Made by a program: the position numbers and the translations under genes
Notes under the pieces: model-generated
What the model was told of the DNA's origin: nothing
The model's input: only the letters and a program-made list of their open reading frames with translations
Database searches by the model: none
From: Armatimonadota bacterium
GTDB taxonomy: Bacteria; Sysuimicrobiota; Sysuimicrobiia; Sysuimicrobiales; Sysuimicrobiaceae
Direction: 5' to 3'
Assembly: GCA_031432545.1 (NCBI GenBank)
Contig: JAVKGX010000006.1
Span: 28,569 to 92,568 of the forward strand
DNA: 64,000 nt
Part shown: piece by piece, positions 2,608 through 21,299 of the stretch
Layout: every line of letters starts with the position of its first letter
Numbering within the stretch: position 1 is the stretch's first letter

Positions 2608-3279
2608 TCAGAGCCGACTCACGCGGACACGGGAGGCCGCCTCCGGGCCGATGGCCCTGCGGTGGCCGTTCGTCTGGAAGAAGATGGGCCCGTTGAAGGG
2701 TGCCACCTCCTCGACGAGCAGTTCGGCACCGGGCACCAGGCCGAGCGAGCCGAGGTAGCGCACGAGTTCGGCGTTCTCTTCCGGGATGCTGCGGACCCTG
2801 CCGCGCTCCCCCGCGCGCAGATCGGCGAGGCTCGCCTCGGGAAGCGAGTCGATGCGGCCGTCGCGGCACGGGATCGGCTGGCCGTGGGGGCAGTGGGTGG
2901 GCGAACCCAGGACGGCCTCCAGGCGTGCTTCCACCTCCGGGCTGATGACGTGCTCCATCTTGCACGCCTCGTCGTACACCCTGTCCAGAGCAAGCCCGAG
3001 GACGTCGGTGAGCAGGCGTTCGGCCAGGCGCAGGCGGCGCACGACGCGCACGGCGACGTCGTAGCCCTCGGGCGTCAGGGCCACGCCCTCTTCGGTGGGG
3101 CGAACGAACCTCTGCTGCTCCAGCCGCTTGAGCATCTCGGACGCCGACGGCACGGAGACGCCCATGAACTCCGCGACCTTCGAGACCGTCGGAGGCGGTG
3201 CGCTCTGCTGGATCGCAAACACCGCCTTGAGGTACATCTCGGTGCGTTCGGTCTTGGCGATGTCGTGCGTGGTCACCAT
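2608..3279 (-). CDS. Iron-dependent transcriptional repressor, DtxR family
   Basis: Metal-responsive DNA-binding repressor, 223 residues. N-terminal winged helix (TVSKVAEFMGVSVPSASEML), dimerisation and metal-binding domain, then a C-terminal FeoA/SH3-like domain (about residues 145-220). The EACKMEHVIS motif holds the Cys-x-x-Glu-His ligands of iron-type DtxR/IdeR, whereas manganese-type MntR has Glu in place of the Cys. This supports iron sensing. A longer upstream reading to 3408 is arginine-rich and not family-like, so ATG 3279 is preferred. A possible -10 box (TATGTT on the minus strand, 3303-3308) lies upstream. It is followed after 174 bases by the operator-bearing promoter of fbpA. 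Confidence 0.93.
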   Translation of the reverse strand: MVTTHDIAKTERTEMYLKAVFAIQQSAPPPTVSKVAEFMGVSVPSASEMLKRLEQQRFVRPTEEGVALTPEGYDVAVRVVRRLRLAERLLTDVLGLALDRVYDEACKMEHVISPEVEARLEAVLGSPTHCPHGQPIPCRDGRIDSLPEASLADLRAGERGRVRSIPEENAELVRYLGSLGLVPGAELLVEEVAPFNGPIFFQTNGHRRAIGPEAASRVRVSRL

Positions 3280-3368
3280 GCCCGACCCCCAGCCCAAACG
3301 ATAACATAGGACCACGGCGGCCCGCAGGCGGACGACGCCGGGATGCGCCGAGGGCAGAGAGAGCCGCA

Positions 3369-3755
3369 GTGGCCCACCGGAAACTTGCCTCCTTCCAGCG
3401 CCACGCAAACCTGATCCGCGCCGCGCGCAACTGGTACGAGTCGCACGGATACGCGCGCATCTTCGCGGACGTGCCGGGCATACGGCCGCCGCGTTCGATC
3501 CACATCGCCGGATCCGAACCCTCCCGGCCAGACCTCACTTGCCGCGACGCGCGCAATAAACTGGTCGTGGTCGAGGCGGAGACCTGCGACACCCTCGACC
3601 TGCCGGAAACCGCATCGCAGTGGCGTCTGTTCCGGCAGTACGCCGACGCCGCGGGCGGAGAGTTCCACCTGGTCGTCCCGGAGGAGTGCGCGCCGGCCGC
3701 ACAGCGCCGACTCCAGGTGCTGGGGATCCGGGCCGACCACGTCCTGGCGCTGTAG
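3369..3755 (+). CDS. Hypothetical protein, possible PD-(D/E)xK-type fold
   Basis: 128 residues from GTG 3369, with a purine-rich AGAGAGA stretch a few bases upstream. Not recognised. The central part reads RPDLTCRDARNKLVVVEAE, where an Asp in a PD pair followed by a strand with ExE resembles the active-site layout of PD-(D/E)xK nuclease-fold proteins. A later QW motif and a C-terminal alpha/beta segment (FHLVVPEEC) would fit such a fold. No membrane segment or signal is seen. It stands alone between the DtxR gene and the convergent end of the liv operon. Codon position bias favours this frame over the antisense ones. Function is unknown; the fold is inference only. Confidence 0.6.
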   Translation: MAHRKLASFQRHANLIRAARNWYESHGYARIFADVPGIRPPRSIHIAGSEPSRPDLTCRDARNKLVVVEAETCDTLDLPETASQWRLFRQYADAAGGEFHLVVPEECAPAAQRRLQVLGIRADHVLAL

Positions 3756-3772
3756 GAGGACAGCGCCCCGGG

Positions 3773-4477
3773 TCACACGCTAAGGTACCGCCGCCAGACG
3801 TCTGGGGCCGCGCGCAGCTCTTCTGAAGAGCCCTGCCAGACGACGCGGCCGCGCTCGAGCACGAAGTGGTGGTGGGCCAAGTCGAGCAGGCGGTGGACGT
3901 ACTTGTCAATGAGCAGGATCGCCTGGCCGCCTTCGTTCAGGCGGCGCAGGCAGCGCCAGATCTCCTCGCGCAGCATCGGAGCCAGCCCCTCGGTGGCCTC
4001 GTCGAGGATCAACAGATGTGGGTTCGTCATCAGGGCCCTGCCGATCGCGAGCATCTGCTGCTCGCCGCCCGACAGCTGGTCGCCGTAGCGGTTCAGCCGC
4101 TGGCCCAGACGAGGGAACAGGTCCACGACCCGGTCCAGCGTCCACGGGTGGGCGCTGCCGTTGCGGTTGGCGGCGAACGCGACGAGGTTCTCCCGCACGG
4201 TCAGGTTGGGGAAGACCTGGCGTCCCTCCGGCACGAGGGCAACCCCCAGGGCTGCGATCCGCTCCGGCGGCCAGCCCGCGATCGCGCGGCCGCGGAACTC
4301 CACCCGACCGGCGCGCGGGGGCACCAGACCGGTGATCGAGCGGACGGTGGTCGTCTTGCCCATGCCGTTGCGGCCCAGCAGCGTCACGACCTTCCCGTCC
4401 TCGACGGCGAGGTCGACGCCGAAAAGCACCTGGCTGTTCCCGTAAAACGTCTGCAGGCCTTCCACGCTTAGCAGCAT
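3773..4477 (-). CDS. livF: Branched-chain/aromatic amino acid ABC transporter ATPase LivF
   Basis: Cytoplasmic ATPase of a Liv-type importer, 234 residues, normal length. Walker A is GRNGMGKTTT (about residue 37), the signature is LSGGEQQ and Walker B is LLILDEATEGLAP. The NGMGKTT and EGLAP variants are typical of LivF rather than LivG. Its ATG shares one base with the livG stop (TGATG at 4479-4475), indicating translational coupling. It is the last gene of a long leftward operon that begins at the MarR gene at 12925, which ties the transporter to aromatic-acid catabolism rather than to branched-chain amino acids alone. Confidence 0.95.
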   Translation of the reverse strand: MLLSVEGLQTFYGNSQVLFGVDLAVEDGKVVTLLGRNGMGKTTTVRSITGLVPPRAGRVEFRGRAIAGWPPERIAALGVALVPEGRQVFPNLTVRENLVAFAANRNGSAHPWTLDRVVDLFPRLGQRLNRYGDQLSGGEQQMLAIGRALMTNPHLLILDEATEGLAPMLREEIWRCLRRLNEGGQAILLIDKYVHRLLDLAHHHFVLERGRVVWQGSSEELRAAPDVWRRYLSV

Positions 4478-5220
4478 CAAACCGCCTCCCCCAGGTACGC
4501 GCGGTGCACCTCGGGGTTGGCGCGGACCTCGTCGGGCCGACCGGAAGCCAGGACCCGGCCGTCCACCAGCACCGAGATCCGGTCCGCCGCGCCGAAGACG
4601 ACATCCATGTCGTGTTCGACGAGCAGGATCGTGACCTGCTTTTTCAGGTCTCGGATCAACTCCAGCATGCGCCGCGACTCCTCCAGACTCATGCCGGAGG
4701 TCGGCTCGTCCAGCAGCAGCAGCTTGGGACGGCAGGCCAGCGCCAGGGCCACCTCGACCTGGCGCTGCTCCCCGTGGGACAGCGCCTGCACCGGCACGTG
4801 CAGGCGGTCTGCGAGGCCGACCTGCCGTGCGAACGCGGCTGCCTCGTCTTCGAGGTCCCGCTCGCGGTACACGGGGTGCCAGAAGCCAAACGAGCTCCCC
4901 GTCCGCGCCTGGACCGCGAGGGCGAGGTTGTCCACGACGGTGTAGCCCCAGAACAGGTTGGTGACCTGGAACGTGCGGGCGATCCCCAGCAGCGTGCGCC
5001 GGTGCGCGGGCAGGCGGGTGACGTCGTCGCCGGCGAACGCGATCCTGCCCTCCGTCGGCGGCACGACACCCGCGACCAGGTTGATGAACGTCGTCTTGCC
5101 GGCGCCGTTGGGACCGATGAGCGCGTGGACCTCGCCGGGTGCGACGTCCAGGTCGCACCGCCACAGGGCAACCACCCCACCGAAGCGCTTGCTGAGACCG
5201 CGGACTTCCAGCAGGCTCAC
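4477..5220 (-). CDS. livG: Branched-chain/aromatic amino acid ABC transporter ATPase LivG
   Basis: Second ATPase of the Liv importer, 247 residues from GTG 5220. Walker A is GPNGAGKTTF, the signature region is LSHGEQRQVEVALAL and Walker B is LLLLDEPTSGMS, all LivG-like. The GTG overlaps the livM stop (GTGA, 5220-5217). Pairs with LivF under the LivH/LivM membrane channel. The signature SHGEQ rather than SGGQ is usual for LivG. Confidence 0.95.
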   Translation of the reverse strand: MSLLEVRGLSKRFGGVVALWRCDLDVAPGEVHALIGPNGAGKTTFINLVAGVVPPTEGRIAFAGDDVTRLPAHRRTLLGIARTFQVTNLFWGYTVVDNLALAVQARTGSSFGFWHPVYRERDLEDEAAAFARQVGLADRLHVPVQALSHGEQRQVEVALALACRPKLLLLDEPTSGMSLEESRRMLELIRDLKKQVTILLVEHDMDVVFGAADRISVLVDGRVLASGRPDEVRANPEVHRAYLGEAV

Positions 5221-7209: not shown

Positions 7210-8382
7210 CTACAGGCGACAGCGGCCGACGTAGGCGTCGCCGTGGTTGCGGAAGATCGTGCCGCGCAACCGATTGACGATCTCGCCGTTGGTCTGCTCT
7301 TCGACCTGCCGCAGGTAGTAGTCCTGGATCGGATACCCGTTGCGGTTGAACCGGACGCGTCCGCGGGTGGTGTCGAAGCCCGCCAGGATCGCGCGCCGAA
7401 TGTCCGCCCTGCGGCCCAGGTCGCCCCCGACGGCCCGCAGAGCGTGGTCGAGGGCAAGCGCCGCGTCGTATCCCTGTGCCGCATAGAGCGCCGGCACCCG
7501 GTTGTAGGTGCGACGGAAGTCTTCGACGAACCGGCGGTTGATGGGGTTGAAGATCTCCAACGCCCAGTGCGAGCTGTTGAACACCCCCACCATCGGCCGC
7601 CCCACCGCGCGGATGATGTCGGCGTCGGCCGAAAATCCGGGCAGCAGCAGCGGGATCTCCCGCATCAGCCCAGCCTCCGCGTACTGCTTATTGAAGTTCA
7701 CCCCCATCGCACCCGGGTAGAAGGCGTACACGGCCCTGGGGCGGGCGGCACGGATCTGTGCGATCTCCGCCGAGTAGTCCAGCTGGCCCAGCCGCGTGTA
7801 CACCTCGCTCACCACGCGCCCCTTGTAAAAGCGCTTGAATCCGTTGAGCGCGTCGCGCCCGGCCGGGTAGTTCGGCGCGAGGATGAAGGCGGTCTCGTAC
7901 CCGCGCAGCTGCGCGTGGTGTCCCATGGCCTCGTGCAGGTTGTCGTTCTGCCAGGCGACGTTGACGAAGAATGGGTTGCACTGCTCGCCGGCGTACTCCG
8001 ACGGCCCTGCGTTGGGGCTGATGTAGAAGGTCTGGTTCGCGAACACCATCTCCCCGACCGCCAGCAGCACATTCGAGAAGATGATCCCGGTGACGAAGTC
8101 GACGCGGTCGCGCCGCAGCATGCGGTCCACCGCGGTGCGCGCGACCTCGGGGTTCTGCTCGTCGTCAGCGACCACGACCTCCACGCCCAGCCCGCCGAGC
8201 CGGTTGCCGAGGTGCCGCAGCGCGAGGTTGAAGCCGTCGCGCACGTCGATCCCCAGCGCCGCGCCGCCTCCGGACAGGGTGCTCACGAACCCGATCTTGA
8301 CGGCGCGCGGCTGCGCGCCGACGGGCAGCGCCGCCACCACCAGCAACGCAACGACGAGGTAAGCGATCCTGCAGCCGATCAT
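7210..8382 (-). CDS. livK: ABC transporter substrate-binding protein, LivK/Peripla_BP_6 family
   Basis: Secreted binding protein, 390 residues. The start at 8382 begins a signal peptide (MIGCRIAYLVVALLVVAALPVGAQ), and its ATG overlaps the RidA stop (ATGA). The mature protein has the type I periplasmic-binding layout: VKIGFVSTLSGGGAALG at the start, VDFVTGIIFSNV and PRAVYAFYPGAMGVNFNKQY. Peripla_BP_6 proteins bind branched-chain or aromatic amino acids, benzoates and amides. Its place directly behind a 2-aminobenzoate-type ligase and RidA suggests an aromatic substrate (anthranilate, kynurenine or tryptophan). That specificity is inference; Leu/Ile/Val remain possible. Confidence 0.92.
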   Translation of the reverse strand: MIGCRIAYLVVALLVVAALPVGAQPRAVKIGFVSTLSGGGAALGIDVRDGFNLALRHLGNRLGGLGVEVVVADDEQNPEVARTAVDRMLRRDRVDFVTGIIFSNVLLAVGEMVFANQTFYISPNAGPSEYAGEQCNPFFVNVAWQNDNLHEAMGHHAQLRGYETAFILAPNYPAGRDALNGFKRFYKGRVVSEVYTRLGQLDYSAEIAQIRAARPRAVYAFYPGAMGVNFNKQYAEAGLMREIPLLLPGFSADADIIRAVGRPMVGVFNSSHWALEIFNPINRRFVEDFRRTYNRVPALYAAQGYDAALALDHALRAVGGDLGRRADIRRAILAGFDTTRGRVRFNRNGYPIQDYYLRQVEEQTNGEIVNRLRGTIFRNHGDAYVGRCRL

Positions 8383-8813
8383 CGTTGTGTCCCCCCTTCC
8401 GGTGTGGGAATGACTGCCGTAGCCTCGATCTCCACCTTTGCGCGCGGTTCGACCAGAGCGGAGACCTCCACGACCGACATCGCCGGGTAGTGGCGGCCGA
8501 TGACCTCGCGGTAGACGGCACCCAGCGCCGGCAGGCTGCGCAGGTACTCCTCCCGATTGGTGATGTACCACGTGAGGCGCACCAAGTGGTCCGCTCGCGC
8601 GCCCGCGGCCGCCAGCAGCTCGACGACGTTGCGCAGCGCGCGGTCGACCTGCCCGACGAAGTCATCGGTCTCGAACTGGCCCTCGCGGTTCCAACCGAGC
8701 ATGCCGGCCAAGAAGACCAGACGACCGGAGGCCACAATCCCGTGGGCGTACCCCTGCGGCCGGGGCCACCCCGGCGGCTGGACGATCGCCCAAGCGTCGC
8801 CGGGCACCGTCAC
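8379..8813 (-). CDS. RidA/YjgF/YER057c/UK114 family protein
   Basis: Small trimeric enamine/imine deaminase family, 144 residues. Typical features are YAHGIVASGRLVFLAGMLG near the start and the C-terminal segment MSVVEVSALVEPRAKVEIEATAV, where the Arg (here in PRAK) contacts the carboxylate in RidA. Start and stop overlap both neighbours (ATGA each side), embedding it between the CoA ligase and livK. RidA-like proteins recur in clusters for aerobic 2-aminobenzoyl-CoA breakdown. A reasonable role is hydrolysis of the enamine/imine formed once the ring is reduced, releasing ammonia. That role is inferred. Confidence 0.9.
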   Translation of the reverse strand: MTVPGDAWAIVQPPGWPRPQGYAHGIVASGRLVFLAGMLGWNREGQFETDDFVGQVDRALRNVVELLAAAGARADHLVRLTWYITNREEYLRSLPALGAVYREVIGRHYPAMSVVEVSALVEPRAKVEIEATAVIPTPEGGTQR

Positions 8814-10431
8814 GGCCGCACCTCCCCGGCCTCGCGCTCACGCAGCACGTGACGCTGCAGCTTGCCCGTCAGCGTGCGCGGGAGTTCGGAGCAGAACTCG
8901 ATCGCCCGCGGGTACTTGTACGGGGCGATCCGCCGCTTGACAAACCCCTGCAGTTCCTGGCGGAGGTCTTCCGATGGTTCGAAGTCCGCACGCAGGACGA
9001 CGTAGGCCTTCACGACCTGCCCGCGTTCGGGGTCTGGGACCCCGGCGACGCCGCACTCGGCCACCGCCGGGTGCTCCAGCAGCGTGTCCTCCACTTCCGG
9101 CGGTGCGATGTTGTAGCCGGCGGAGATGATCAGGTCGTCGGTGCGCGCCTGGAAGTGAAAGTACCCGTCCTCGTCGAGCAAGCATGCGTCGCCGGTCACG
9201 TTCCAGCCGTGCTGCACGTACTGCCGCTGCCGCGCATCCGCCAGGTACCGGCATCCGGTGGGTCCGCGCACCGCGAGGCGACCGACCCGCCCCGGCGGCA
9301 ACACGTCGCCCCGTTCGTCGAGCAGACAGGCCTGGTAGCCAGGCACGGCCCTGCCGATGGCTCCGGGGCGGGCTTCTTCTTCTCGGTGGGAGACGAAGAT
9401 GTGCAGCATCTCGGTCGAACCGATGCCGTCGATGATCTCGACGCCGCTGACTTCCTTCCATTGGTTGCGGGTCGACGCCGGCAGCGGCTCGCCAGCCGAG
9501 ACGCACTTGTACAGATGTCGCGGGCGGTGTTGGCGCCACAGGGCCGCCAGCGCGCGATAGGCGGTTGGCGAGGTGAACAGCACGCGGACGCCGAACTCCG
9601 CCACTGCCGCGAGCAGCAGATCGGGAGAGGCGCGCTCCAGCAGCAGCGACGACGCGCCGATCCGCATCGGAAAGGCGACGAGACCGCCCAGCCCGTAGGT
9701 GAACGCCAGCGGCGGGCTGCCGGCAAACAGATCGTCCGGATCGGCCCGCAGCACGTGGGCGGCGAAGGTGTCGCAGATCGCCAGCACGTCCCGGTGGAAG
9801 TGCACGCACCCCTTGGGCTCGCCGGTGGTCCCCGAGGTGAAGGCGACGAGCGCCGGGTCGTCCGAGGATGTGTTCACCGGGTCGAAGTCTGCCGGATGCG
9901 TCGCGGCCAGCCGCTCCAGCTCGCCGCCCTCCCCCCAGTAGGCGATGCGGCGCAGCACCGGGGCGGCGGCGCGGGCATCCTCGAGCTCTGCCGACAGACG
10001 CGCGTCCGCCAGGGCGTGCGAGATGCGGGCTTTCTCGATGATCGGTACGAGTTCGCGGGCACGCAGCAGCGGCATCGTCGCCACCACCACGCCCCCGGCA
10101 CGGAGCACCGCGAACCAAGCCGCAACCAGCATCGGGGTGTTGGCCGAGCGCAGCAGCACGCGGTTGCCCGGCACCAGGCCCATGTCGCGAACCAGCACGT
10201 GCGCGATGCGATTGGAATGCTCCAGCAGCTGCCCGTAGGTCCACACGACGCCCGGCGCGCGGATGCAGGGCCTTTCGGGATGCCGGCGCGCCCCGCGGTC
10301 GAGCAGTTCGACCGTGCAGTTCAACCGATCGGGGTAGCGCAGCTCCGGGAGGTCGAAGACCAGCGGAGGCCACGCGTCGGGCGGTGGGAGGTTGTCCCGC
10401 ACGAATGTGTCCGCGTGCGCCGTCGCGGCCA

Positions 10432-10432
<1 letters not shown>
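8810..10432 (-). CDS. 2-aminobenzoate-CoA ligase-type AMP-dependent synthetase
   Basis: Acyl-adenylate-forming ligase of the benzoate-CoA ligase family, 540 residues. P-loop FTSGTTGEPKG (about residue 205), the family motif GIGSTEMLHIFVS (about 345), the hinge region and a C-terminal catalytic Lys in PRTLTGKLQR are all intact. ATG 10432 is chosen over the adjoining GTG because AGGAGGG lies six bases before it; it shares a base with the upstream stop (TGATG). Neighbouring genes (RidA, acyl-CoA dehydrogenase, crotonase, kynureninase island) point to anthranilate as substrate. Benzoate or a hydroxybenzoate cannot be excluded. Confidence 0.9.
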
Positions 10433-11595
<1,163 letters not shown>

Positions 11596-11618: not shown

Positions 11619-12437
11619 TCAGTCCCCGCGGAAGGTCGGCGCCTGCCGGTGGACGAACGCCTCGTAGCCGCGCCGGAAGTCCTGAGTGCTCATGCACAGG
11701 GCCTGCGCCTGGGCTTCGGCCTCGATCGCCTCGTCCAGCCCCATCGACCACTCCTGGTACAGCATCCGCTTGGTCATCGCGTGGGCAAACGTCGGACCGC
11801 CGGCGATCTCGCGCGCCAGACGCCGCACCGACGGCAACAGGTCGTCGGGCTCGCACAGCCGGTTGAAGAAGCCCCAGCGCGCGGCCTCCTCGCCGTCCAT
11901 CGTGCGTCCCGTGTACAGCAGCTCGGCGGCCCGGCCCTGCCCTACGATCCGGGGCAGCAGCGCGCACGCACCCATGTCGCACCCGGCCAAACCGACACGG
12001 TTGAACAGAAAAGCGATGCGGCTGCGCGCCGTCCCCAAGCGCAGGTCGGCGGCCATCGCCAGCGCCGCTCCCGCTCCGGCGCAGACCCCGTCCACCGCTG
12101 CGACGATCACCTGGGGACAGGTCAGCATCGCACAAACGACCGCGCCGGTCATGCGCGTGAAGCGCAAAAGGTCCGGCGCCCCCATGCGCACCAGAGGTCC
12201 GATGATCTCGTGCACGTCGCCGCCGGAGCAGAAGTCCTCGCCGGCTCCGCACACAACCACGGCCCGCACGTCGTCGGCGCGGCCGAGCATCTGGAACAGG
12301 TCGCGCAGCTCCCCGTACGTCTCGAAGGTCAGCGCGTTCTTGCGGGCCGGCCGGTTCAGCGTCACCGTCCCGACACCCTCGTCCACCTCCCACAGGAAGT
12401 GTTGGGCGCGGTAGTCGGCGAGTGGCACTCCCTTCAA
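11619..12437 (-). CDS. Enoyl-CoA hydratase/isomerase (crotonase) family protein
   Basis: Crotonase-fold protein, 272 residues from TTG 12437, which overlaps the MarR stop (TTGA); GGGAGG lies eight bases before it. The oxyanion-hole loop FCSGGD and the second glycine ([14 protein letters not shown]) are present. Both classical enoyl-CoA hydratase glutamates are missing: the CEL position reads AAL, and the second is replaced around FLFNRVGL. An Asp in GLAGCDMGA aligns with the catalytic Asp of dienoyl-CoA isomerases. It may therefore be an isomerase, ring-hydrolase or atypical hydratase acting on the alicyclic CoA intermediates. Confidence 0.9.
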
Positions 12438-12925
12438 TGTGCCGCCTCCCTCTTCCGCACGCTCTGCTTGAGCCGCCCCAGCAGCGCGTGCAGCGTCTCG
12501 ATGTCCTCCCCTGACAGGTCGGAGAAGAGTTCAACGATCCACGCCTCGTGCGTCCGCGCCATGCGTGCGAACGCCCTCCGGCCGGCCGGCGTCAGGTGCA
12601 CGAGGACGGAGCGCCGGTCCTGGGGGTCGGCGCGGCGTCGGATCCAGCCCTCCGCCTCGAGGCGGTCGACGAGGGCCGTCACGTTCCCGGTGGTGACCAT
12701 CATGCGCCGCGACAGCTCGCCCATGCGCAGCCCGCGGGGGTTGCGCTCCAGCTGCGCCAACAGGTCGAAGCGCGGCAGCGTGGTCCCGAACCGGCGGCGC
12801 AGCCGGCGGCGGATCTCGGCGGTGATGAGGTTGGTGCACGTGAGCAGGCGCAGCCACAGCCGGACCGCCCGGTGGTCGTCCGTGTGGAGGCGGCTTTCCA
12901 GGTCGGATGCTTCGGAGACCGCCAC
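12434..12925 (-). CDS. MarR family transcriptional regulator
   Basis: Winged-helix repressor, 163 residues from GTG 12925. The DNA-binding part reads [31 protein letters not shown], with the wing [16 protein letters not shown] following. First gene of a leftward operon of ten genes ending at livF, and divergent from the SDR-ligase-LLM-monooxygenase run. A 27-base imperfect palindrome lies between the two. MarR proteins in such clusters usually sense an aromatic acid or its CoA ester; the effector here is unknown. Confidence 0.93.
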
Positions 12926-13028: not shown

Positions 13029-13805
13029 ATGGATCTTCGGGGACGCGTGGCATTCGTCACCGGCGGCGGGCGGGGCGTGGGCCGGGCCTGCGCGGCAGAG
13101 ATCGCGCGCGCTGGCGCCGCGGTGGCCCTCGCCGCCCGCAGCGCGGACCAGATCGGTCGGGCGGCGGCGGAGGTCGAAGCCAGCGGAGGACGGGCGATCG
13201 GTGTGGTCTGCGACGTGACGGATCGGCGACAGGTCGAAGCAGCGGTGGCGCGGACGCGGGAGGAACTCGGCCCGGTCACGGTGCTGGTCGCCGCCGCCGG
13301 AATCGCCCGAGGCATGCCGTTTTCGGAGACCACCGACGCGGACTGGGAGGAGCACCTGCGCACCAACGCCACCGGCGCTTTCTACGCGATCCGCGCCGTG
13401 CTGCCCGACATGCTGGACGCCGGCTGGGGGCGCATCGTCGCGGTGGCCTCGGTGGCCTCGAAGGCCGCCTCCCGCTACACCGCCGCCTACACCGCCTCCA
13501 AGCACGCGCTGCTGGGCCTGATCCGGTCGGTGGCGATCGAGTACACCGACCGGGGAATCACGGCCAACGCGGTGTGCCCCGGATATCTGGCCACCGACAT
13601 GACCTTCCGCAACATCGAGCGGATCAGCGCCCGCAGCGGACGCCCGCCCGAGGAGGTTCGCAGGATCCTCGAACGGTTCAGCCCCCAGCGGCGCCTGTTC
13701 ACCGCCGAGGAGGTGGCCTCGCTCGTGGCGTTCCTGTGCAGCGACGCTGCACGGGGCATCAACGGACAGGGGTTGGTGCTGGACGGCGGGGCGGTAATGT
13801 CGTAG
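13029..13805 (+). CDS. SDR family NAD(P)-dependent oxidoreductase
   Basis: Classical short-chain dehydrogenase, 258 residues. Cofactor motif TGGGRGVGRA at the N-terminus, then AAAG in place of NNAG, an active-site Ser in VASVASK, the Y-x-x-x-K pair in AYTASKHAL, and the PGYLATDM loop. First gene of the rightward operon under the MarR operator, 10 bases before the second CoA ligase. In this context it may act as the 3-hydroxyacyl-CoA or ring-alcohol dehydrogenase step. Substrate is not determinable from sequence. Confidence 0.92.
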   Translation: MDLRGRVAFVTGGGRGVGRACAAEIARAGAAVALAARSADQIGRAAAEVEASGGRAIGVVCDVTDRRQVEAAVARTREELGPVTVLVAAAGIARGMPFSETTDADWEEHLRTNATGAFYAIRAVLPDMLDAGWGRIVAVASVASKAASRYTAAYTASKHALLGLIRSVAIEYTDRGITANAVCPGYLATDMTFRNIERISARSGRPPEEVRRILERFSPQRRLFTAEEVASLVAFLCSDAARGINGQGLVLDGGAVMS

Positions 13806-13815
13806 GGAGCGCGAC

Positions 13816-15372
13816 ATGGTCACCTACGAGGATGTGCCCGCGCGTTTCAACCTGACCCGCTACTTCCTCGACCGCCACCTCGAGGAAGGACGGCAGGACC
13901 GGACCGCGCTCGTCTGCGGCACCCGCCGGGTGACCTACGGCGAGCTGGCGAGCTTGGCCAACCGTGTGGGCAACGTCTTGCGGGAACTGGGCACCGAACC
14001 CGAACACCGGGTGCTGCTGGCGCTGTCCGACGGCGTAGAGTTCGTCGCGACCTGGTACGCGGCGCTGAAGATCGGTGCGGTCTCCGCCGAGGTGTACACG
14101 TTTTTGACCGTCGCGGATTACGCGTACTACCTGGACTACGTCCGCCCCCGTGTGGTTGTCACGGATCCCGTGACCCACGACCGGATCCGCGACGCGGCGC
14201 GCCAGACGAACTTCCGGGGCCGGATCCTGGCGGTGGGCGTGGAAGACCTGCGTCCGGGCGAGATCAGCTTTGACCGCGCGGTGGCCGAAGCACCTGATGA
14301 GCTGCGCGGGGAGGACACGGCCAAGGACGACTTCGCCCTGTGGAAGTTCACCACGGGCACGACGGGCCGGCCGAAGGCGGTCGTCCACTGCCACTACGCA
14401 CCCTATCTCAGCTTCTGGAACTACGCCCAGGAGGTGATCCGCTACAGGCCAGACGACGTGGTGCTGCCGGTGCCGAAGCTGTTCTTCGGGTACGCCCGCG
14501 ACTGCACGGCGCTGTTTCCGTTCGGCGTGGGCGCATCCGGCGTGGTCTTCCCGGAGCGTTCCACCCCTGAGCGCATGTTCGAGCTGATCGCCGCGCACCG
14601 CCCGACGATCCTCGTGCTGGTGCCGACGATGATCCACGCGATGCTCGCGCACGCCCAGGCCGGGCGGGCCGACCTGTCGTGCGTGCGCTTGGCGACCTCT
14701 GCGGGCGAGGCGTTGCCCGCGGAGCTGTATCACCGGTGGAAGGCCGCCTTCGGGGTCGAGGTGCTGGACGGCATCGGGTCGTCGGAGCTGTACCACATCT
14801 ACATTTCGAACCGGCTCGACGACGTGCTCCCGGGCAGCGTCGGGCGTCCGTGTCCCGGATACCGCGCCGAGGTCCGCAACCCGGAGGGCGCCTCCCTGCC
14901 CCCGGGCGAGGTCGGGGAGCTGTGGGTGTGGGGCGAGACCGCGGCGCTGCTGTACTGGAAGGATCGCGGCAAGTCCGTGCGCACCTTCCACGGCAACTGG
15001 GTGCGCACCGGCGACCTGTTCTCGCAGGACGAAGACGGCCGCTTCTTGTACCGGGGCCGAGCGGACGACCTGATGAAGGTGGGCGGCATCTGGGTCGCGC
15101 CGATGGAGATCGAGGCCTGCCTGCTCACGCATCCGCTGGTCGCCGAGTGTGCGGTCGTGCCCTATACAGAAGGCGGGCTGGTCCTGCCGCGCGCGTACGT
15201 CGTACTGCGGGAGCCACAGCGCGCCTCGCCGGAGGTCGCGCGTGAGCTGCAGGCGTACGTGCGGGGACGCCTCAGCCCGCACAAGTTCCCGCGGGACGTC
15301 CATTTCGCTGAATCGCTCCCGCGCACACCGTCGGGCAAGGTCGACCGCAAGCAACTGCGGAGCACCGAATGA
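13816..15372 (+). CDS. Benzoate-CoA ligase family protein (second paralogue)
   Basis: Acyl-adenylate ligase, 518 residues. P-loop FTTGTTGRPKA (about residue 178), GIGSSELYHIYIS (about 322; benzoate-CoA ligase family motif) and catalytic Lys in PRTPSGKVDR at the C-terminus. Clearly a distinct paralogue of the ligase at 8810-10432 rather than a recent copy. It is 10 bases after the SDR. It may take a different ring substrate (for example benzoate, salicylate or a substituted anthranilate), or the two may be differently induced. The N-terminal region is typical, with no signal or extra domain. Confidence 0.92.
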   Translation: MVTYEDVPARFNLTRYFLDRHLEEGRQDRTALVCGTRRVTYGELASLANRVGNVLRELGTEPEHRVLLALSDGVEFVATWYAALKIGAVSAEVYTFLTVADYAYYLDYVRPRVVVTDPVTHDRIRDAARQTNFRGRILAVGVEDLRPGEISFDRAVAEAPDELRGEDTAKDDFALWKFTTGTTGRPKAVVHCHYAPYLSFWNYAQEVIRYRPDDVVLPVPKLFFGYARDCTALFPFGVGASGVVFPERSTPERMFELIAAHRPTILVLVPTMIHAMLAHAQAGRADLSCVRLATSAGEALPAELYHRWKAAFGVEVLDGIGSSELYHIYISNRLDDVLPGSVGRPCPGYRAEVRNPEGASLPPGEVGELWVWGETAALLYWKDRGKSVRTFHGNWVRTGDLFSQDEDGRFLYRGRADDLMKVGGIWVAPMEIEACLLTHPLVAECAVVPYTEGGLVLPRAYVVLREPQRASPEVARELQAYVRGRLSPHKFPRDVHFAESLPRTPSGKVDRKQLRSTE

Positions 15373-15448: not shown

Positions 15449-16297
15449 GTGAGCATCCGAATCGGCATCGGGCTCCCCAGCGGCGTCCCGGAGGTGAGGG
15501 GCGAGGTGATCATGCGCTGGGCGCTTCGCGCCGAGCAGGGGCCCTTCGCGAGCCTCGGCGTGATCGACCGTCTGGCCTACGACAGCTACGATCCGCTGAT
15601 CGCGCTGGCCGCGGCGGCCGGTGCGACGCAGCGTCTGAAGCTGGTCACCGCGATCCTCGTCGGACCGCTGCGCAACACTGCCCTGCTGGCGAAGGCGATT
15701 GCCTCGCTCGATCAACTGTCGGGCGGGCGGCTGGTCGTCGGGTTGGCGGTGGGCGCCCGGGAGGAGGACTACGACGCCGCCGGTGTCGACCACCGCGGAC
15801 GGGGCGCGCGGCTTTCCGAGCAGCTGCGCCGGCTGCGGCAGATCTGGGAAGAGGGCAGGATCGGTCCTCCGCCCGCCCGAGCCGGGGGGCCGCCGTTCCT
15901 CGTGGGTGGGTTCAGCGACGAGGCCTTCGCGCGGGCCGCCCGCTACGCCGACGGCTACTTCCACGGCGGCGGCCCACCCCGCGCGTTCGCGCGCGCCGCC
16001 CAGGCCGCCCGCGCCGCATGGGTCGACGCCGGCCGGCCGGGACGCCCGCAGCTGTGGGGGCAGGGCTACTTCGCCCTCGGCGACGACGCCATCGAGCAGG
16101 CCGTCCGCTACATGCGGGACTACTACGCGTTCACCGGCCCGTTCGTCGAGAAGATCGTCGAGCAGTTGCTGACCACGCCGCAGAGGATTGTCCAGTTCGT
16201 GGAAGGCTACGCCGAGGCGGGGTGCGACGAACTCGTCCTCTTGCCGGCTGTGGGAGACCTCGACCAGATCGACCGGCTCGCAGAGGCGCTGCCTTGA
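15449..16297 (+). CDS. LLM class (luciferase-like) flavin-dependent oxidoreductase
   Basis: TIM-barrel flavin oxidoreductase of the bacterial luciferase-like superfamily, 282 residues from GTG 15449, chosen because GGAGG sits six bases upstream. Recognisable segments are IRIGIGLPSG, RLKLVTAILVGPLRN, LAKAIASLDQLSGGRLVVGLAVG and PPFLVGGFSDEAFARAARYADGYFHGG. Members use reduced FMN or coenzyme F420; which is used here is not clear. It follows the ligase by 76 bases and its stop overlaps the TTG start of the fused monooxygenase (TTGA), so the two are made together. An LLM protein is not a standard member of 2-aminobenzoyl-CoA clusters. Confidence 0.88.
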   Translation: MSIRIGIGLPSGVPEVRGEVIMRWALRAEQGPFASLGVIDRLAYDSYDPLIALAAAAGATQRLKLVTAILVGPLRNTALLAKAIASLDQLSGGRLVVGLAVGAREEDYDAAGVDHRGRGARLSEQLRRLRQIWEEGRIGPPPARAGGPPFLVGGFSDEAFARAARYADGYFHGGGPPRAFARAAQAARAAWVDAGRPGRPQLWGQGYFALGDDAIEQAVRYMRDYYAFTGPFVEKIVEQLLTTPQRIVQFVEGYAEAGCDELVLLPAVGDLDQIDRLAEALP

Positions 16298-18408
16298 GGG
16301 TCGCCATCGTTGGCGGCGGACCCGCCGGCCTGTACCTCGCCCTGCTGCTGAAGAAGGCCGACCGCAGCCGCGAGATCACAGTCTTCGAGCGTAACCCGCC
16401 CGATGCGACCTACGGGTGGGGCGTGGTGTTCAGCGATCGCACGCTCGCCGAGTTCCGGGAGGCCGACTACCGGACCTATCGGGAGATCACCGACCGGTTC
16501 GTCCTGTGGGACGCGATCGACGTCTGGGTCCACGGCGAGCGGGTGCGTTGCGGCGGGCACGTCTTCGCGGGCATCGCACGCACGGCGCTGCTGGGCATCC
16601 TGCAGCGCCGCTGCGCGGACCTCGGCGTGCGGCTCGTCTTCCGCGCCGAGGTCACCCAACCATCCGACCTGCCGCCGCATGACGTGCTCGTGGGCGCCGA
16701 CGGTGTCCACAGCATCGTGCGCTCGTGGTACGAGGACGCCTTCCGGCCGACGATCGCGTACGGGCGCGCCCGGTACGTGTGGCTCGGGACGCGCCGCACG
16801 CTGGGGGCGTTCACGTTCGCGTTCCGCCCGACCGAGTGGGGGCTGTTCCAGGCCCACGCCTATCCGTACGACGGCCGCACGAGCACGTTCATCGTCGAGT
16901 GCGCCGAGACGACGTGGCGTCGGGCAGGCCTGCAGGAAGCCGACGAAGAGCAGACGCTGCGCCGATGCGAGGCCATCTTCGGGGACGTGCTGCGCGGGGA
17001 GCCACTGCTGTCGAACAACTCGCGGTGGATCCGCTTCCCCACCCTTCGTGCGCACGCCTGGCACTTTGGCAACGTGGTCTTGCTGGGCGATGCTGCCCAC
17101 ACCGCGCACTTCTCGATCGGTTCCGGTACCAAACTCGCGATGGAGGACGCGATCGTGCTCGCCAACGCCTTCGAGGCGCACCGGGACGTCGAGGCGGCGC
17201 TGCGCACCTACGAGGGCGAACGCCGGCCGATCGTCGAAGCGTTCCAGCGCGCCGCCGCGCAGAGCCAGCGGGCGTTCGAGACCACGGACCGCACGATCCG
17301 GCTGGACCCGATGCGGTTCGCGTTCCACCTGCTCACCCGAAGCGGCCGCATCTCTTACGACGATCTGCGGCTACGCGACCCGGCGTTCGTCGACCGCGTC
17401 GACGGGCACCTCGCGCGCGAACGGGACCGGCTGCGCCTGCCGCCCCCGCCCGCCCACCTCCCCTTCACCGTGTGCGGGCTGCGCCTGGACAACCGCGTCG
17501 TCCTGCGACCGGCGGCCGCGTGCGGCGCGACCGACGGCGTGCCAGCCAGTTCGCACCGGGATGCGCTGGCCCGACTCGCCTCGAGGGGGGCGGGGCTGGT
17601 GCTGACCGAGATCGTCGCGGTCCTGCCCGAAGGGCGCATCACGCCCGAAGACGCCGGGCTGTACCGACCGGAGCACGCGGCGGGTTGGGCAGCCATAGTC
17701 GGGGCGGTGCACGCGGAGGGGGCGAGGGTGGGCGCGGTCCTCGGACACGCCGGGCGCCGGGGCGCCACGCGGCCGCGCCGCTTCGGTGTGGACGTCCCCC
17801 TCCGCCAACCCTGGACCCTGCTGGCGCCCAGCCCCGTCCCGTACCTGCCCGAAAGCCCCGTCCCCAAGGAGATGACCGAAGCGGACATGGACGCGGTGCG
17901 GGCGGCCTACGTGCGGGCTGCCCGGATGGCGCGCGAGGCCGGCTTCGACCTGCTGCACCTGCACTTCGGATGCGGCTACCTGCTGGCGAGTTTCCTGTCT
18001 CCCCTGACGAACCGGCGCACCGACGCCTACGGCGGGACGCTCGAGAACCGTCTGCGGTTTCCGCTCGAGGTGTTCGCCGCGGTGCGCGGGGAGTGGTCGG
18101 GGCCCGTGGGGGTGGCCCTGCCCGCGTCGGACCGAGCGCGCCGCGGCATCGGCGAGGCCGACGCGCTGGCGATCGCCCAGGCGTTCAGGGACGCCGGATG
18201 CGATCTGGTCGAGGTCACCGCCGGCCAGACGGTCTCCGACGACGACCCGACCTATGGGCCGGGCTTTTTGGTGCCCTTCGCCGACGCGGTACGCAACGGG
18301 GTCGGTGTCGCGGTGCTCGTCGCGGGCGGCCTGGCCTCGATCGGCGACGTCAACACGCTGGTGGCCTCCGGCCGCGCCGATCTGTGCGTCCTGGAGCCGT
18401 GGGACTAG
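16294..18408 (+). CDS. Fused aromatic-CoA monooxygenase/reductase (2-aminobenzoyl-CoA or salicyloyl-CoA 5-hydroxylase type), reductase half divergent and short
   Basis: Two-domain flavoprotein, 704 residues. Residues 1-380: FAD monooxygenase, with VAIVGGGPAGLYLALLL at the N-terminus and LGDAAHTAHFSIGSGTKLAMEDA near 265. Residues 390-704: Old Yellow Enzyme-like reductase, with GHAGRRGATRP and ASFLSPLTNRRTDAYGGTLENR. Family proteins are usually about 760-780 residues; this one stops at RADLCVLEPWD, about 60 residues early, losing the last barrel helix. Two substrate-site features are altered: the SPM-Y strand near the domain start reads RPAAACGAT, and HxxHGY reads HFGCGY. TTG 16294 overlaps the LLM stop, with AGAGG eight bases upstream. 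The established family reaction hydroxylates and then reduces the ring of 2-aminobenzoyl-CoA. Confidence 0.88.
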   Translation: MRVAIVGGGPAGLYLALLLKKADRSREITVFERNPPDATYGWGVVFSDRTLAEFREADYRTYREITDRFVLWDAIDVWVHGERVRCGGHVFAGIARTALLGILQRRCADLGVRLVFRAEVTQPSDLPPHDVLVGADGVHSIVRSWYEDAFRPTIAYGRARYVWLGTRRTLGAFTFAFRPTEWGLFQAHAYPYDGRTSTFIVECAETTWRRAGLQEADEEQTLRRCEAIFGDVLRGEPLLSNNSRWIRFPTLRAHAWHFGNVVLLGDAAHTAHFSIGSGTKLAMEDAIVLANAFEAHRDVEAALRTYEGERRPIVEAFQRAAAQSQRAFETTDRTIRLDPMRFAFHLLTRSGRISYDDLRLRDPAFVDRVDGHLARERDRLRLPPPPAHLPFTVCGLRLDNRVVLRPAAACGATDGVPASSHRDALARLASRGAGLVLTEIVAVLPEGRITPEDAGLYRPEHAAGWAAIVGAVHAEGARVGAVLGHAGRRGATRPRRFGVDVPLRQPWTLLAPSPVPYLPESPVPKEMTEADMDAVRAAYVRAARMAREAGFDLLHLHFGCGYLLASFLSPLTNRRTDAYGGTLENRLRFPLEVFAAVRGEWSGPVGVALPASDRARRGIGEADALAIAQAFRDAGCDLVEVTAGQTVSDDDPTYGPGFLVPFADAVRNGVGVAVLVAGGLASIGDVNTLVASGRADLCVLEPWD

Positions 18409-18420
18409 GGGCGGATAAGG

Positions 18421-19212
18421 CTAGCCGCCGAAGCGGCCGGGCCGGTCCCGGCCGCCGGTCCCCCGCGTGAGCGCGCGGACCGTCTCGACGAGCATCTCGG
18501 CAAGGATCGCGAAGGTGGCTTCCCCTTCTTCGGCGGTCGCGTGTGCCGGCGATCCACAGTAGGCCCGGTCCAGGCCCATCGCCCGGAACTCGCGCACGCC
18601 GCGACCGATCGCCTCGACGAGGCTGACGGGTACGGCCGGCAGCGACCGCATCGTCTGCACGTCGACCAGATCCGGGCGTTCGGCGAGCACCAGCGACGTC
18701 TCGTACTGGCCTCCGTGGCAGGCACCGCTGCGGAACTCTTCGGTCAGTCGGCGCGCTCGGGCGCTGCGGGTCAGGTCGCAGAACCCGACGACGCAACCCG
18801 TGGTGGACTCGACCTCGTCCAGGGCTCGGTGGATCGTCCGTACGTGCTCGGGCTCGAAGTGGTTGTTGACGACGACGACGTACCGGAAGCCCTGCCCCAG
18901 CAGGGATGTGCAGATCCCCACGAGCACGCCGTGCAGCGTCTGCTCGGAAAACCCGACCGCACCGGAAAAGCCCGCCGCGTACCGTGTCACACCGTAGGGG
19001 ACGGGCGGCAACACCAACAGCCGTACGTCGGGATCGTCGGCGAGGCGATCGGCGGCGCGGCGGCACGTCCCCACGGAGATCAGCAGGTCGGTGGACAGCG
19101 GCGCGTGCGGCCCGTGCGGCTCGACCGCGCCGAGCGGGAGGAGCAAGACCGGCGCCCGCCCGCTACGCAGGAGCGCGTCGACGTCCGGCCAGCGCAGGTC
19201 GGCGAACTCCAT
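18421..19212 (-). CDS. Creatininase family amidohydrolase
   Basis: Metal-dependent amidohydrolase of the creatininase family, 263 residues. Ligand positions seen in creatininase are all kept: Glu and His in VEPHGPH, Asp in LSTDLL, His in VNNHFEPEH (normally NGHGGN) and Glu in QYETSLVLA. Start ATG 19212 has no Shine-Dalgarno; a TACAAT box ends six bases upstream, so the mRNA is probably leaderless. Divergent from tryptophan 2,3-dioxygenase across 120 bases and only 12 bases from the end of the monooxygenase. The family includes creatinine hydrolases, MftE peptidase and the archaeal ArfB formamide hydrolase, so a formylkynurenine hydrolase role is possible but unproven. Confidence 0.88.
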   Translation of the reverse strand: MEFADLRWPDVDALLRSGRAPVLLLPLGAVEPHGPHAPLSTDLLISVGTCRRAADRLADDPDVRLLVLPPVPYGVTRYAAGFSGAVGFSEQTLHGVLVGICTSLLGQGFRYVVVVNNHFEPEHVRTIHRALDEVESTTGCVVGFCDLTRSARARRLTEEFRSGACHGGQYETSLVLAERPDLVDVQTMRSLPAVPVSLVEAIGRGVREFRAMGLDRAYCGSPAHATAEEGEATFAILAEMLVETVRALTRGTGGRDRPGRFGG

Positions 19213-19218
19213 GTCCCG

Positions 19219-19224
19219 ATTGTA
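19219..19224 (-). promoter_or_regulatory. -10 box for leaderless creatininase-family gene
   Basis: TACAAT on the minus strand, six bases before ATG 19212, with no ribosome binding site between them. The transcript would start at or next to the start codon. No convincing -35 box is seen. Confidence 0.5.
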
Positions 19225-19277
19225 GTCGAAGGCGGCGCAGGGGTCCGCCAAACCTGGCGATGGCGCGGGGGCGGGGG

Positions 19278-19332: not shown

Positions 19333-20154
19333 ATGCAGGCGCCGGCCAAGCCCCTTACGTACGGCAGGTACATCCGCACCGCAGAGCTGCTGCGTCTGCA
19401 GCAGCGCCTGAGCGACGCGCACGACGAGCTGCAGTTCATCGTCGTCCACCAGGTGTTCGAACTCTGGTTCCGGCTGATGATCTTCGAGCTCGAGAGCGTG
19501 CGGGGCGCGCTGGTGCGCGGCGACCTCCCGACCGCCGCCCGCCTGCTGCGGCGGGCCACGGAGATCGCCCGCGCGCTGCTCGTCGGGTTCGACGTCATCG
19601 AGACGATGCGCCCGTGGGACTTTCTGGAGTTCCGCTCGCAGCTCAAGCCCGCCAGCGGGTTCCAGAGCCGGCAGTTCCGCGAGATCGAGTTCCTGTCGGG
19701 AGCCAAGGACCCGCGCTACCTCGCAAGCTTCGAGCGGGAGCCCGAAGACCTGGCGGCGCTGCGGCGGCGGCTGGGAGAACCGACCGTCTGGGACGCGTTC
19801 ATCGAGTTGCTGCGCGGCCGCGGGCTTCCGACCGACGACGACGCGCAGATCCGTCAGACGCTCATCCGGATCCACAAGGATCCGTCGCTTGCGGATCTGT
19901 ACGAGCTGTCCGAAGCGATGATCGCCTACGACGAGATGTTCGCGCTGTGGCGGCGCCGCCACGTCCTGATGGTCGAGCGCATGATCGGAGCGCGTCCCGG
20001 GACCGGACAGGCCGACGTGCAGAAGACGATCGGCGAGCAGGCCTCCGACGAGCCGGCGTACTTCACCGGGGTCGGATACCTGCACGAGACCCTCTCGAAG
20101 AAGTTCTTCCCGCTGCTGTGGGAAACCAGGACGTTCGTGGAGCGTGACGCATGA
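19333..20154 (+). CDS. kynA: Tryptophan 2,3-dioxygenase
   Basis: Heme enzyme that opens the indole ring of L-tryptophan to N-formylkynurenine, 273 residues. The distal-His motif VVHQVFELWF, the substrate-binding FRSQLKPASGFQSRQFREIE and the proximal heme-His segment RRRHVLMVERMIG are present. Instead of the usual compact GTGGSSGxxYL, the chain reads GTGQ, then about 18 extra residues, then GVGYLHETLSKKFFPLLWE, an insertion beside the active site. ATG 19333 has GGGAGG eight bases upstream. Its stop overlaps kynU (ATGA), a clear kynurenine-pathway operon. Confidence 0.96.
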   Translation: MQAPAKPLTYGRYIRTAELLRLQQRLSDAHDELQFIVVHQVFELWFRLMIFELESVRGALVRGDLPTAARLLRRATEIARALLVGFDVIETMRPWDFLEFRSQLKPASGFQSRQFREIEFLSGAKDPRYLASFEREPEDLAALRRRLGEPTVWDAFIELLRGRGLPTDDDAQIRQTLIRIHKDPSLADLYELSEAMIAYDEMFALWRRRHVLMVERMIGARPGTGQADVQKTIGEQASDEPAYFTGVGYLHETLSKKFFPLLWETRTFVERDA

Positions 20155-21299
20155 CCGATTCCCTGCTGCGCTGGCGGAGCGAGTTCCCCATCCTCGCGCA
20201 CACCACCTATTTGGTGTCGCACTCGATGGGTGCGATGCCGCGTTCGGCGACCGACTGGCTGGCCCGCTACGGCAGGGAGTGGAGCGAGCAGGGCGTGGCG
20301 GCGTGGGAACGGTGGGAGCCCTACGTGCGCGAGCACGCAGACCGGATCGGCACGCTGATCGGTGCGCCTGCGGGCACCGTCGCGCTGCACCAGAACGTCT
20401 CGACCCTGTTCGGCATTTTGCTCAGCGGCCTCGTGCAGCCGGGCGGTCGCACGAAGGTGGTCGCCACCGACCTGAACTTCCCCACCCTGCTCTATGCCCT
20501 GCAGATGCACGAAGACCTGGGGCTGCGCCTCCACCGCATCCCCAGCCCCGACGGCATCACGATTCCCCTGGAAGCCTGGGAGGATGCGGTTGACGACCGG
20601 ACGCTGGCGGTGGTCGTCGACCACGGGATCTTCCGGTCGGGCGCCCTGCAGGACGTGGCAGCAATCACTCAGATCGCGCACCGCCACGGGGCGTGGTCGA
20701 TCGTGGACGCCTATCAGACCGTCGGCTGCGTGCCCGTGGATGTGCGGGCGTGGGGCGCGGACGCCGTACTGGGGGGTTCGCACAAGTGGCTGTGCGGAGG
20801 GCCCGGCGCCGCCTGGCTGTACGTGCAGTCGGACCGGTTGGCCTCCGTGCGGCCCCGGATGGTGGGATGGTTCAGCCACCGCGATCCGTTCGCATTCGAC
20901 CTGCGCATGGAGTTCGCCGCCGACGCCATGCGCTTTGCGACCGGCACGCCCGGGATCCCGGGCCTGTTCGCGGCGCGGGCCGGGCTGGAGATCGTGCTGG
21001 AAGTGGGTGCCGAGGCGATCCGGCAGAAGTCTGTGCGCTTCACCCAACGGATCATCGACCTGGCGGACGAGTACGGACTGCGCGTGAACACACCCCGCGA
21101 GGCATCAGCCAGGGGTGGCCTCGTCGTCGTCGACTTCCCCGGAGCCGAGGCGGCGACCCGGGAACTGGCGCGACGCAACGTCCTCGTCGACCACCGGCCC
21201 AGAGCCGGCATCCGCATCTCCGGACACTTCTACACCGCCGACGAGGAAATCGACCACGCGTTCGACGTGCTGCGGGAGTTCGCACGCCGCTCCGCGTGA
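20151..21299 (+). CDS. kynU: Kynureninase / class V aminotransferase-fold enzyme
   Basis: PLP enzyme that cleaves kynurenine to anthranilate and alanine, 382 residues. It has the kynureninase-like PLP site: VDAYQTVGCVPVDVRAWGAD followed by GGSHKWLCGGPG with the Schiff-base lysine, and FATGTPGIPGLFAARAG near residue 265. Translationally coupled to tryptophan 2,3-dioxygenase, which strongly supports kynureninase over cysteine desulfurase or other class V enzymes. It ends 24 bases from the convergent trpB2 gene. Confidence 0.9.
   Translation: MTDSLLRWRSEFPILAHTTYLVSHSMGAMPRSATDWLARYGREWSEQGVAAWERWEPYVREHADRIGTLIGAPAGTVALHQNVSTLFGILLSGLVQPGGRTKVVATDLNFPTLLYALQMHEDLGLRLHRIPSPDGITIPLEAWEDAVDDRTLAVVVDHGIFRSGALQDVAAITQIAHRHGAWSIVDAYQTVGCVPVDVRAWGADAVLGGSHKWLCGGPGAAWLYVQSDRLASVRPRMVGWFSHRDPFAFDLRMEFAADAMRFATGTPGIPGLFAARAGLEIVLEVGAEAIRQKSVRFTQRIIDLADEYGLRVNTPREASARGGLVVVDFPGAEAATRELARRNVLVDHRPRAGIRISGHFYTADEEIDHAFDVLREFARRSA

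Follow-up and report, generated by a model that had tools for sequence, protein, structure and literature searches.

A 2-aminobenzoyl-CoA monooxygenase/reductase variant with a truncated reductase half and a constant luciferase-like partner gene

Dearomatisation by means of a hydroxylase/reductase fusion is an established route of aerobic anthranilate degradation, and the usual enzyme of this type hydroxylates the aromatic ring and then partly reduces it. The described systems closest to the locus analyzed here are the 2-aminobenzoyl-coenzyme A (CoA) monooxygenase/reductases (ACMR) of Azoarcus evansii and Arthrobacter sp. Rue61a (pAL1), together with the NCBIfam model NF006101 (bifunctional salicylyl-CoA 5-hydroxylase/oxidoreductase, 768 positions, cut-off 1078 bits). 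A fusion gene of this kind was analyzed in a stretch of 64,000 nucleotides from an Armatimonadota bacterium (contig JAVKGX010000006.1), referred to below as the window. Judging by its sequence, the window fusion belongs, as a variant, with the bifunctional monooxygenases/reductases of 2-aminobenzoyl-CoA (or salicylyl-CoA): it has the same two-domain order, approximately 45–50% identity over the whole protein, an intact flavin adenine dinucleotide (FAD) half and a similar operon (CoA ligase, RidA, enoyl-CoA hydratase, acyl-CoA dehydrogenase). In contrast to ACMR, its Old Yellow Enzyme (OYE) half is cut after barrel strand 8, the flavin mononucleotide (FMN) residues are replaced, and an additional gene of the luciferase-like monooxygenase (LLM) class lies directly upstream.

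Three other groups of proteins are relevant. With the class III (thermophilic-like) OYEs YqjM, GkOYE and CaOYE, the window protein shares barrel homology through strand 8 as well as Tyr169 and His164. The FMN contacts of YqjM have been listed (PMC4002455), and class III OYEs have an arginine finger at the C-terminus (PMC8146883). Unlike these enzymes, the window protein has no Q102, R215, Q265, R308, Y28 or C-terminal arginine finger. The partner gene belongs to the PF00296 fold family, as do the LLM-class F420-dependent oxidoreductases of TIGR03619; it differs from them in that its best NCBIfam match, to TIGR03619, is below the cut-off (141.7 versus 166.9 bits; 128.6 and 130.9 bits for haloarchaeal partners) and that F420 biosynthesis looks incomplete in the window genome. 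The structure of VioD is the nearest solved one to the FAD half, whereas VioD itself is an enzyme of violacein biosynthesis that lacks an OYE domain.

Truncation and loss of FMN-binding residues

The main features of the locus, all on the plus strand, are as follows.

15449..16297, plus strand: LLM-class (PF00296, TIGR03619-like) oxidoreductase, the partner gene overlapping the fusion (profile and homology searches)
16294..18408, plus strand: fusion gene, 704 amino acids (aa), FAD (group A) hydroxylase half and truncated OYE-like half; TTG start, NF006101 match
16294..17448, plus strand: FAD hydroxylase half with intact motifs GGGPAGLY, GADG and LLGDAAHT; nearest solved relative VioD
17449..18408, plus strand: OYE-like half (PF00724), ending after barrel strand 8 (profile/homology search, alignment)
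17506..17532, plus strand: RPAAACGAT in place of SPMxxYSA (YqjM S23-Y28; alignment)
17737..17739, plus strand: V482 in place of FMN-binding Q102 (alignment)
17962..17979, plus strand: HFGCGY in place of HxxHGY (H164, H167, Y169; alignment)
18115..18117, plus strand: A608 in place of FMN-binding R215 (alignment)
18268..18270, plus strand: L659 instead of FMN-binding Q265; each of the 13 truncated relatives has Leu here
18394..18408, plus strand: EPWD and stop, against ARPHL... in canonical fusions; loss of R308, which binds FMN in YqjM, and of all downstream sequence

According to homology and the position of the upstream gene, the true start of the fusion is TTG at 16294, within a 4-bp overlap (TTGA) with the stop of the LLM gene; about 92 residues at the front of the listed open reading frame (16018–18408) are non-coding. 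The protein matches NF006101 with 857.6 bits, under the cut-off, and covers profile positions 1–716 of 768. Four other truncated members score 782–918 bits, and two canonical fusions 1228 and 1290 bits.

The OYE half is homologous to NADPH dehydrogenase through strand 8 (phmmer, 5e-60) and ends just past it, at EPWD, so that the full-length fused OYE domain of ACMR and NF006101 is not present; its C-terminus reads ...GRADLCVLEPWD*. The first-pass annotation, made from the letters of the sequence, had put the shortening at about 60 residues; the early end was confirmed, and its extent is approximately 52 profile positions. An AlphaFold model of the fusion from a two-row alignment (mean pLDDT 49) was unfit for fold search; its secondary structure has the last strand at 697–700 and nothing beyond. 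A frameshifted remnant downstream was ruled out, as the next gene, on the minus strand, begins 13 bases on and the relatives end at the same place.

Residues were numbered as in YqjM and mapped through GkOYE (3gr7, residues 7–306, same numbering in the alignment). The canonical set consisted of 72 full-length fusions, 29 of them less than 85% identical to each other, and the truncated set of 13 proteins, six from genomes of the small phylum of the window and seven from haloarchaeal plasmid records. All 72 canonical fusions retain Q102, Q265 and Arg or Lys at 215, and R308 is retained wherever the region is covered. In the window protein, the four class III FMN residues Q102, R215, Q265 and R308 are V, A, L and P, respectively, with Y28 replaced by C410; the proline, P702, sits at the truncation point. 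Q102, Q265, Y28 and R308 are missing in 13/13 truncated proteins, as is R215, which is Lys in four of them. The replacements are V/E/T/H/S for Q102, A/T/K for R215, C/S/D/E/T/F for Y28, P or L for R308 and invariably L for Q265.

These losses are more consistent than the change of the second His in HFGCGY, and had been missed by the first-pass annotation. Both motifs that it had named, RPAAACGAT and HFGCGY, were found where it had placed them. In the window protein, the His pair and the Tyr proton donor (H164/H167/Y169) are H, C and Y; nevertheless, the change of the second His was rejected as the key loss and is a detail of the lineage, since H167 is kept in nine of the 13 truncated relatives and changed in four (C, S, S, L), and Tyr169 is kept in all. 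Positions 102, 28 and 23 drift, and Leu at 265, Arg at 109 and Ala at 111 occur in all 13, so that part of the old pocket has gained new fixed residues. From these replacements, the FMN chemistry of the OYE half is almost certainly lost in the short form. As a separate observation, fourteen full-length fusions of one family (f91; L114-L135) have Lys for Arg at R215 and keep all other FMN residues.

The LLM partner, distribution and constraint

An LLM gene lies immediately upstream of the fusion in 13/13 truncated loci versus 0/15 canonical loci with flanks, some of these flanks being short. The 4-bp overlap of the two genes occurs in the window and in three other loci (L068, L070, L071), and they are probably translated together. 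A sample of 386 genomes yielded the LLM gene, at E <= 1e-60, in the six truncated genomes and in no others; at E <= 1e-30, within the phylum, it was found in these six genomes and as one 40%-identical relative (G042). Of 72,556 plasmids, the seven haloarchaeal records alone carry it at E <= 1e-40, and 147 further plasmid records carry other relatives of the fusion without this LLM gene. The same split was seen across sixty loci of two further genome surveys (including the known G001), within a flank of ±1.5 kb only. The LLM proteins of the window and of haloarchaea are 51–58% identical. No description of the LLM/fusion pair was found in the open-licence literature, and no other OYE homologue in the window genome.

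Within the phylum, 43 genomes, all of one order, were compared; those of the bacterial members are mostly drafts. The same truncated protein is encoded in two sister-genus genomes (73–74% identity) and in three genomes of other families (approximately 55–57%), and all truncated proteins of the phylum stop soon past GRADLC. In a third genus of the family of the window, the fusion is of full length and none of the motifs is altered (L042-L044). A tblastn search of plasmids gave the seven haloarchaeal records (three of Haladaptatus, two of Natronococcus, one each of Natronosalvus and Halomicrococcus) with proteins of the same kind of 716–722 aa. A scan of genome contigs gave two contigs of one Spirosoma metagenome-assembled genome, both of the full-length type. 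One low-completeness genome (G006, L005) has a full-length fusion with a single in-frame TAA near its end, possibly an assembly error.

In the tree of the OYE half, the 13 short forms stand apart from the canonical ones with 100/100 support, as do the six bacterial ones alone. The ratios of nonsynonymous to synonymous substitution rates (dN/dS, Nei–Gojobori method, NG86) within the family of the window are 0.18–0.25 in the OYE half and 0.11–0.16 in the FAD half; the corresponding values of canonical pairs are 0.05–0.08 and 0.09–0.13. For pairs from more distant genomes, where synonymous changes are poorly estimated, dN/dS is approximately 0.4–0.5 in both halves. As the values of the truncated OYE half are raised but well below 1, this half is under purifying selection that is relaxed relative to the FAD half. 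Of 103 canonical-invariant columns, 40 are conserved in 95% or more of the truncated OYE halves.

The FAD half, which the first-pass annotation had rightly taken as intact, keeps 72/97 canonical-invariant columns and has the GxGxxG, DG and GD motifs. In its tree, a split with 97/95 support divides the truncated from the canonical side, and two more eroded relatives fall on the former. One is a second fusion copy of G020 (L037, 5334-7313; 659 aa) with an OYE half eroded further and without this LLM gene alongside. The other is a stand-alone hydroxylase of G012 without OYE half (L040, 4545-8744), which adjoins a short-chain dehydrogenase/reductase (SDR), a different LLM protein of 370 aa and a cupin that, judged by eye, is similar to gentisate dioxygenase. 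In seven further genomes (G786, G788, G789, G792, G798, G815 and G823), matches are confined to the FAD half, with open frames of 521–671 aa; another lineage may have lost or swapped domains as well.

Neighboring genes and the cofactor question

The genes surrounding the pair in the window are listed below.

8379..8813, minus strand: RidA-family (enamine/imine deaminase-like) protein
8810..10432, minus strand: second aryl/acyl-CoA ligase, akin to that of the canonical operon
10432..11595, minus strand: acyl-CoA dehydrogenase
11619..12428, minus strand: enoyl-CoA hydratase family protein (PRK08258, above cut-off)
12434..12925, minus strand: MarR-family regulator
13029..13805, plus strand: SDR family oxidoreductase
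13816..15372, plus strand: benzoate-CoA ligase family protein (TIGR02262, above cut-off)
18421..19251, minus strand: creatininase-family hydrolase, located after the fusion and before the tryptophan dioxygenase and kynureninase genes
19333..20154, plus strand: tryptophan 2,3-dioxygenase family protein
20151..21299, plus strand: kynureninase-like enzyme dependent on pyridoxal phosphate (PLP)

The operon of a full-length fusion in a sister genus contains a tryptophan dioxygenase, a kynureninase-like enzyme, MarR, enoyl-CoA hydratase (PRK08258), acyl-CoA dehydrogenase, CoA ligase, RidA and a branched-chain-type ATP-binding cassette transporter. The window holds the same set, with the block SDR, benzoate-CoA ligase, LLM and truncated fusion in place of the canonical fusion, and the creatininase-family gene on the opposite strand; at a guess, the latter could encode the formamidase for N-formylkynurenine. 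Judging from these neighbors, the substrate in the window genome is likely anthraniloyl-CoA, formed from tryptophan via kynurenine and anthranilate. RidA, hydratase and dehydrogenase accompany the truncated form in most lineages.

In the window genome (100% complete), CofE is above the cut-off, the CofD match has only 26 bits, which is not above background, and no match to CofH was found; an F420H2-dependent reductase is therefore doubtful in this genome. G017 and G020 resemble it in their Cof genes, and G001, G003 and G011 have CofD. Across the phylum, CofE is over the cut-off in 40/43 genomes and may have another role there, with CofD (15) and CofH (11) being patchy. In Natronosalvus halobius (L073), cofH and the NADPH-dependent F420 reductase gene npdG (3170-4534 and 12099-12767) flank the LLM/truncated-fusion pair at a distance of at most 4 kb, which suggests that the LLM enzyme uses F420 in haloarchaea.

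Explanations for the truncated reductase half

The first-pass annotation had proposed three fates for the ring-reduction step, namely loss, alteration or takeover by another enzyme; the replaced FMN residues and the constant LLM partner in 13/13 loci point in the same direction. Since the truncated proteins form a conserved group with one constant upstream partner, a step that was taken over or altered is favored over simple loss. The explanation we prefer, at roughly even chances, treats the OYE half as a conserved pseudo-reductase and assigns the second step, probably ring reduction, to the LLM enzyme. It draws directly on four features of the sequences: the lost FMN residues, the single group of OYE halves, the retained constraint and the exclusive LLM pairing. 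The FAD half would still 5-hydroxylate an aryl-CoA (2-aminobenzoyl-CoA or salicylyl-CoA), and the OYE half would no longer hold FMN in the OYE manner. Most likely as the second step, the LLM enzyme would then reduce the hydroxylated ring to a non-aromatic enamine-ketone CoA ester. Because RidA, hydratase and dehydrogenase stay with the truncated form, the reduced product presumably continues to be formed, by the LLM enzyme. The retained barrel would probably serve as a scaffold, a substrate (CoA) platform or a docking surface.

A more specific version is put forward tentatively: haloarchaea and a bacterial phylum of which little is known would share a two-gene system whose FMN reductase domain, part of an aromatic-CoA hydroxylase, has turned into a cofactor-free scaffold, and on this scaffold a luciferase-family protein would dock and carry out the dearomatizing reduction. 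If this docking is real, an enzyme domain has been replaced in trans by an unrelated flavin/deazaflavin family while its shell was kept. A conserved form that lacks the FMN residues and pairs one-to-one with an LLM gene, in Bacteria as well as in Archaea, offers a test of how the chemistry of a domain may pass to an unrelated enzyme while the shell remains. Transfer of the annotation "bifunctional ... oxidoreductase" would be wrong for the truncated group, and an LLM subfamily without prior function gains a candidate role.

Several points weigh against assigning the reduction to the LLM enzyme. The LLM pairing might stem from the transfer of one operon as a unit, without the genes depending on each other in function; the unity of the 13 truncated forms has only 71/81 support in the FAD half; and in two g2 relatives with SDR, ligase, LLM and fusion, the enoyl-CoA hydratase/RidA set is absent from the fetched stretch, so that the substrate may differ between lineages. 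In addition, LLM proteins can also be FMNH2-dependent monooxygenases, and some of these are among the solved relatives. Together with the apparently incomplete F420 biosynthesis of the window genome, and with the G012 stand-alone hydroxylase beside its different LLM protein and gentisate-dioxygenase-like cupin, this agrees with a second explanation: ring reduction was abandoned, the fusion hydroxylates only, and the LLM enzyme acts on the hydroxylated aryl-CoA in a different, oxidative step, for instance by opening the ring or by a monooxygenation that depends on flavin. We consider it unlikely, though the strongest of the alternatives, as RidA, the PRK08258-type enoyl-CoA hydratase and acyl-CoA dehydrogenase, which are kept in G011, G017 and several haloarchaea, suit a reduced product.

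R109, A111 and L265, fixed at positions of the former pocket, and the Tyr169 of all 13 proteins could also mean that the barrel is still catalytic with another cofactor, or with nicotinamide or deazaflavin bound differently, the LLM protein being accessory. This is improbable, since R308 and everything downstream are lost and positions 102, 215 and 28 vary freely, unlike an active site. Decay of a roleless OYE half, with a stand-alone hydroxylase like the G012 protein as its outcome, is less probable again: the eroded G020 copy and that protein are what such decay might produce, but the half is retained in both Bacteria and Archaea, with its conserved columns and dN/dS well below 1. No relative of this shortened length with proven reductase activity, which would have contradicted a loss of function, was found in the open-licence literature. 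A sequencing, assembly or frameshift error, for which nothing beyond the unexpected stop speaks, is practically excluded, as independent genomes at both levels of identity and seven haloarchaeal plasmids share the end point and the motif losses.
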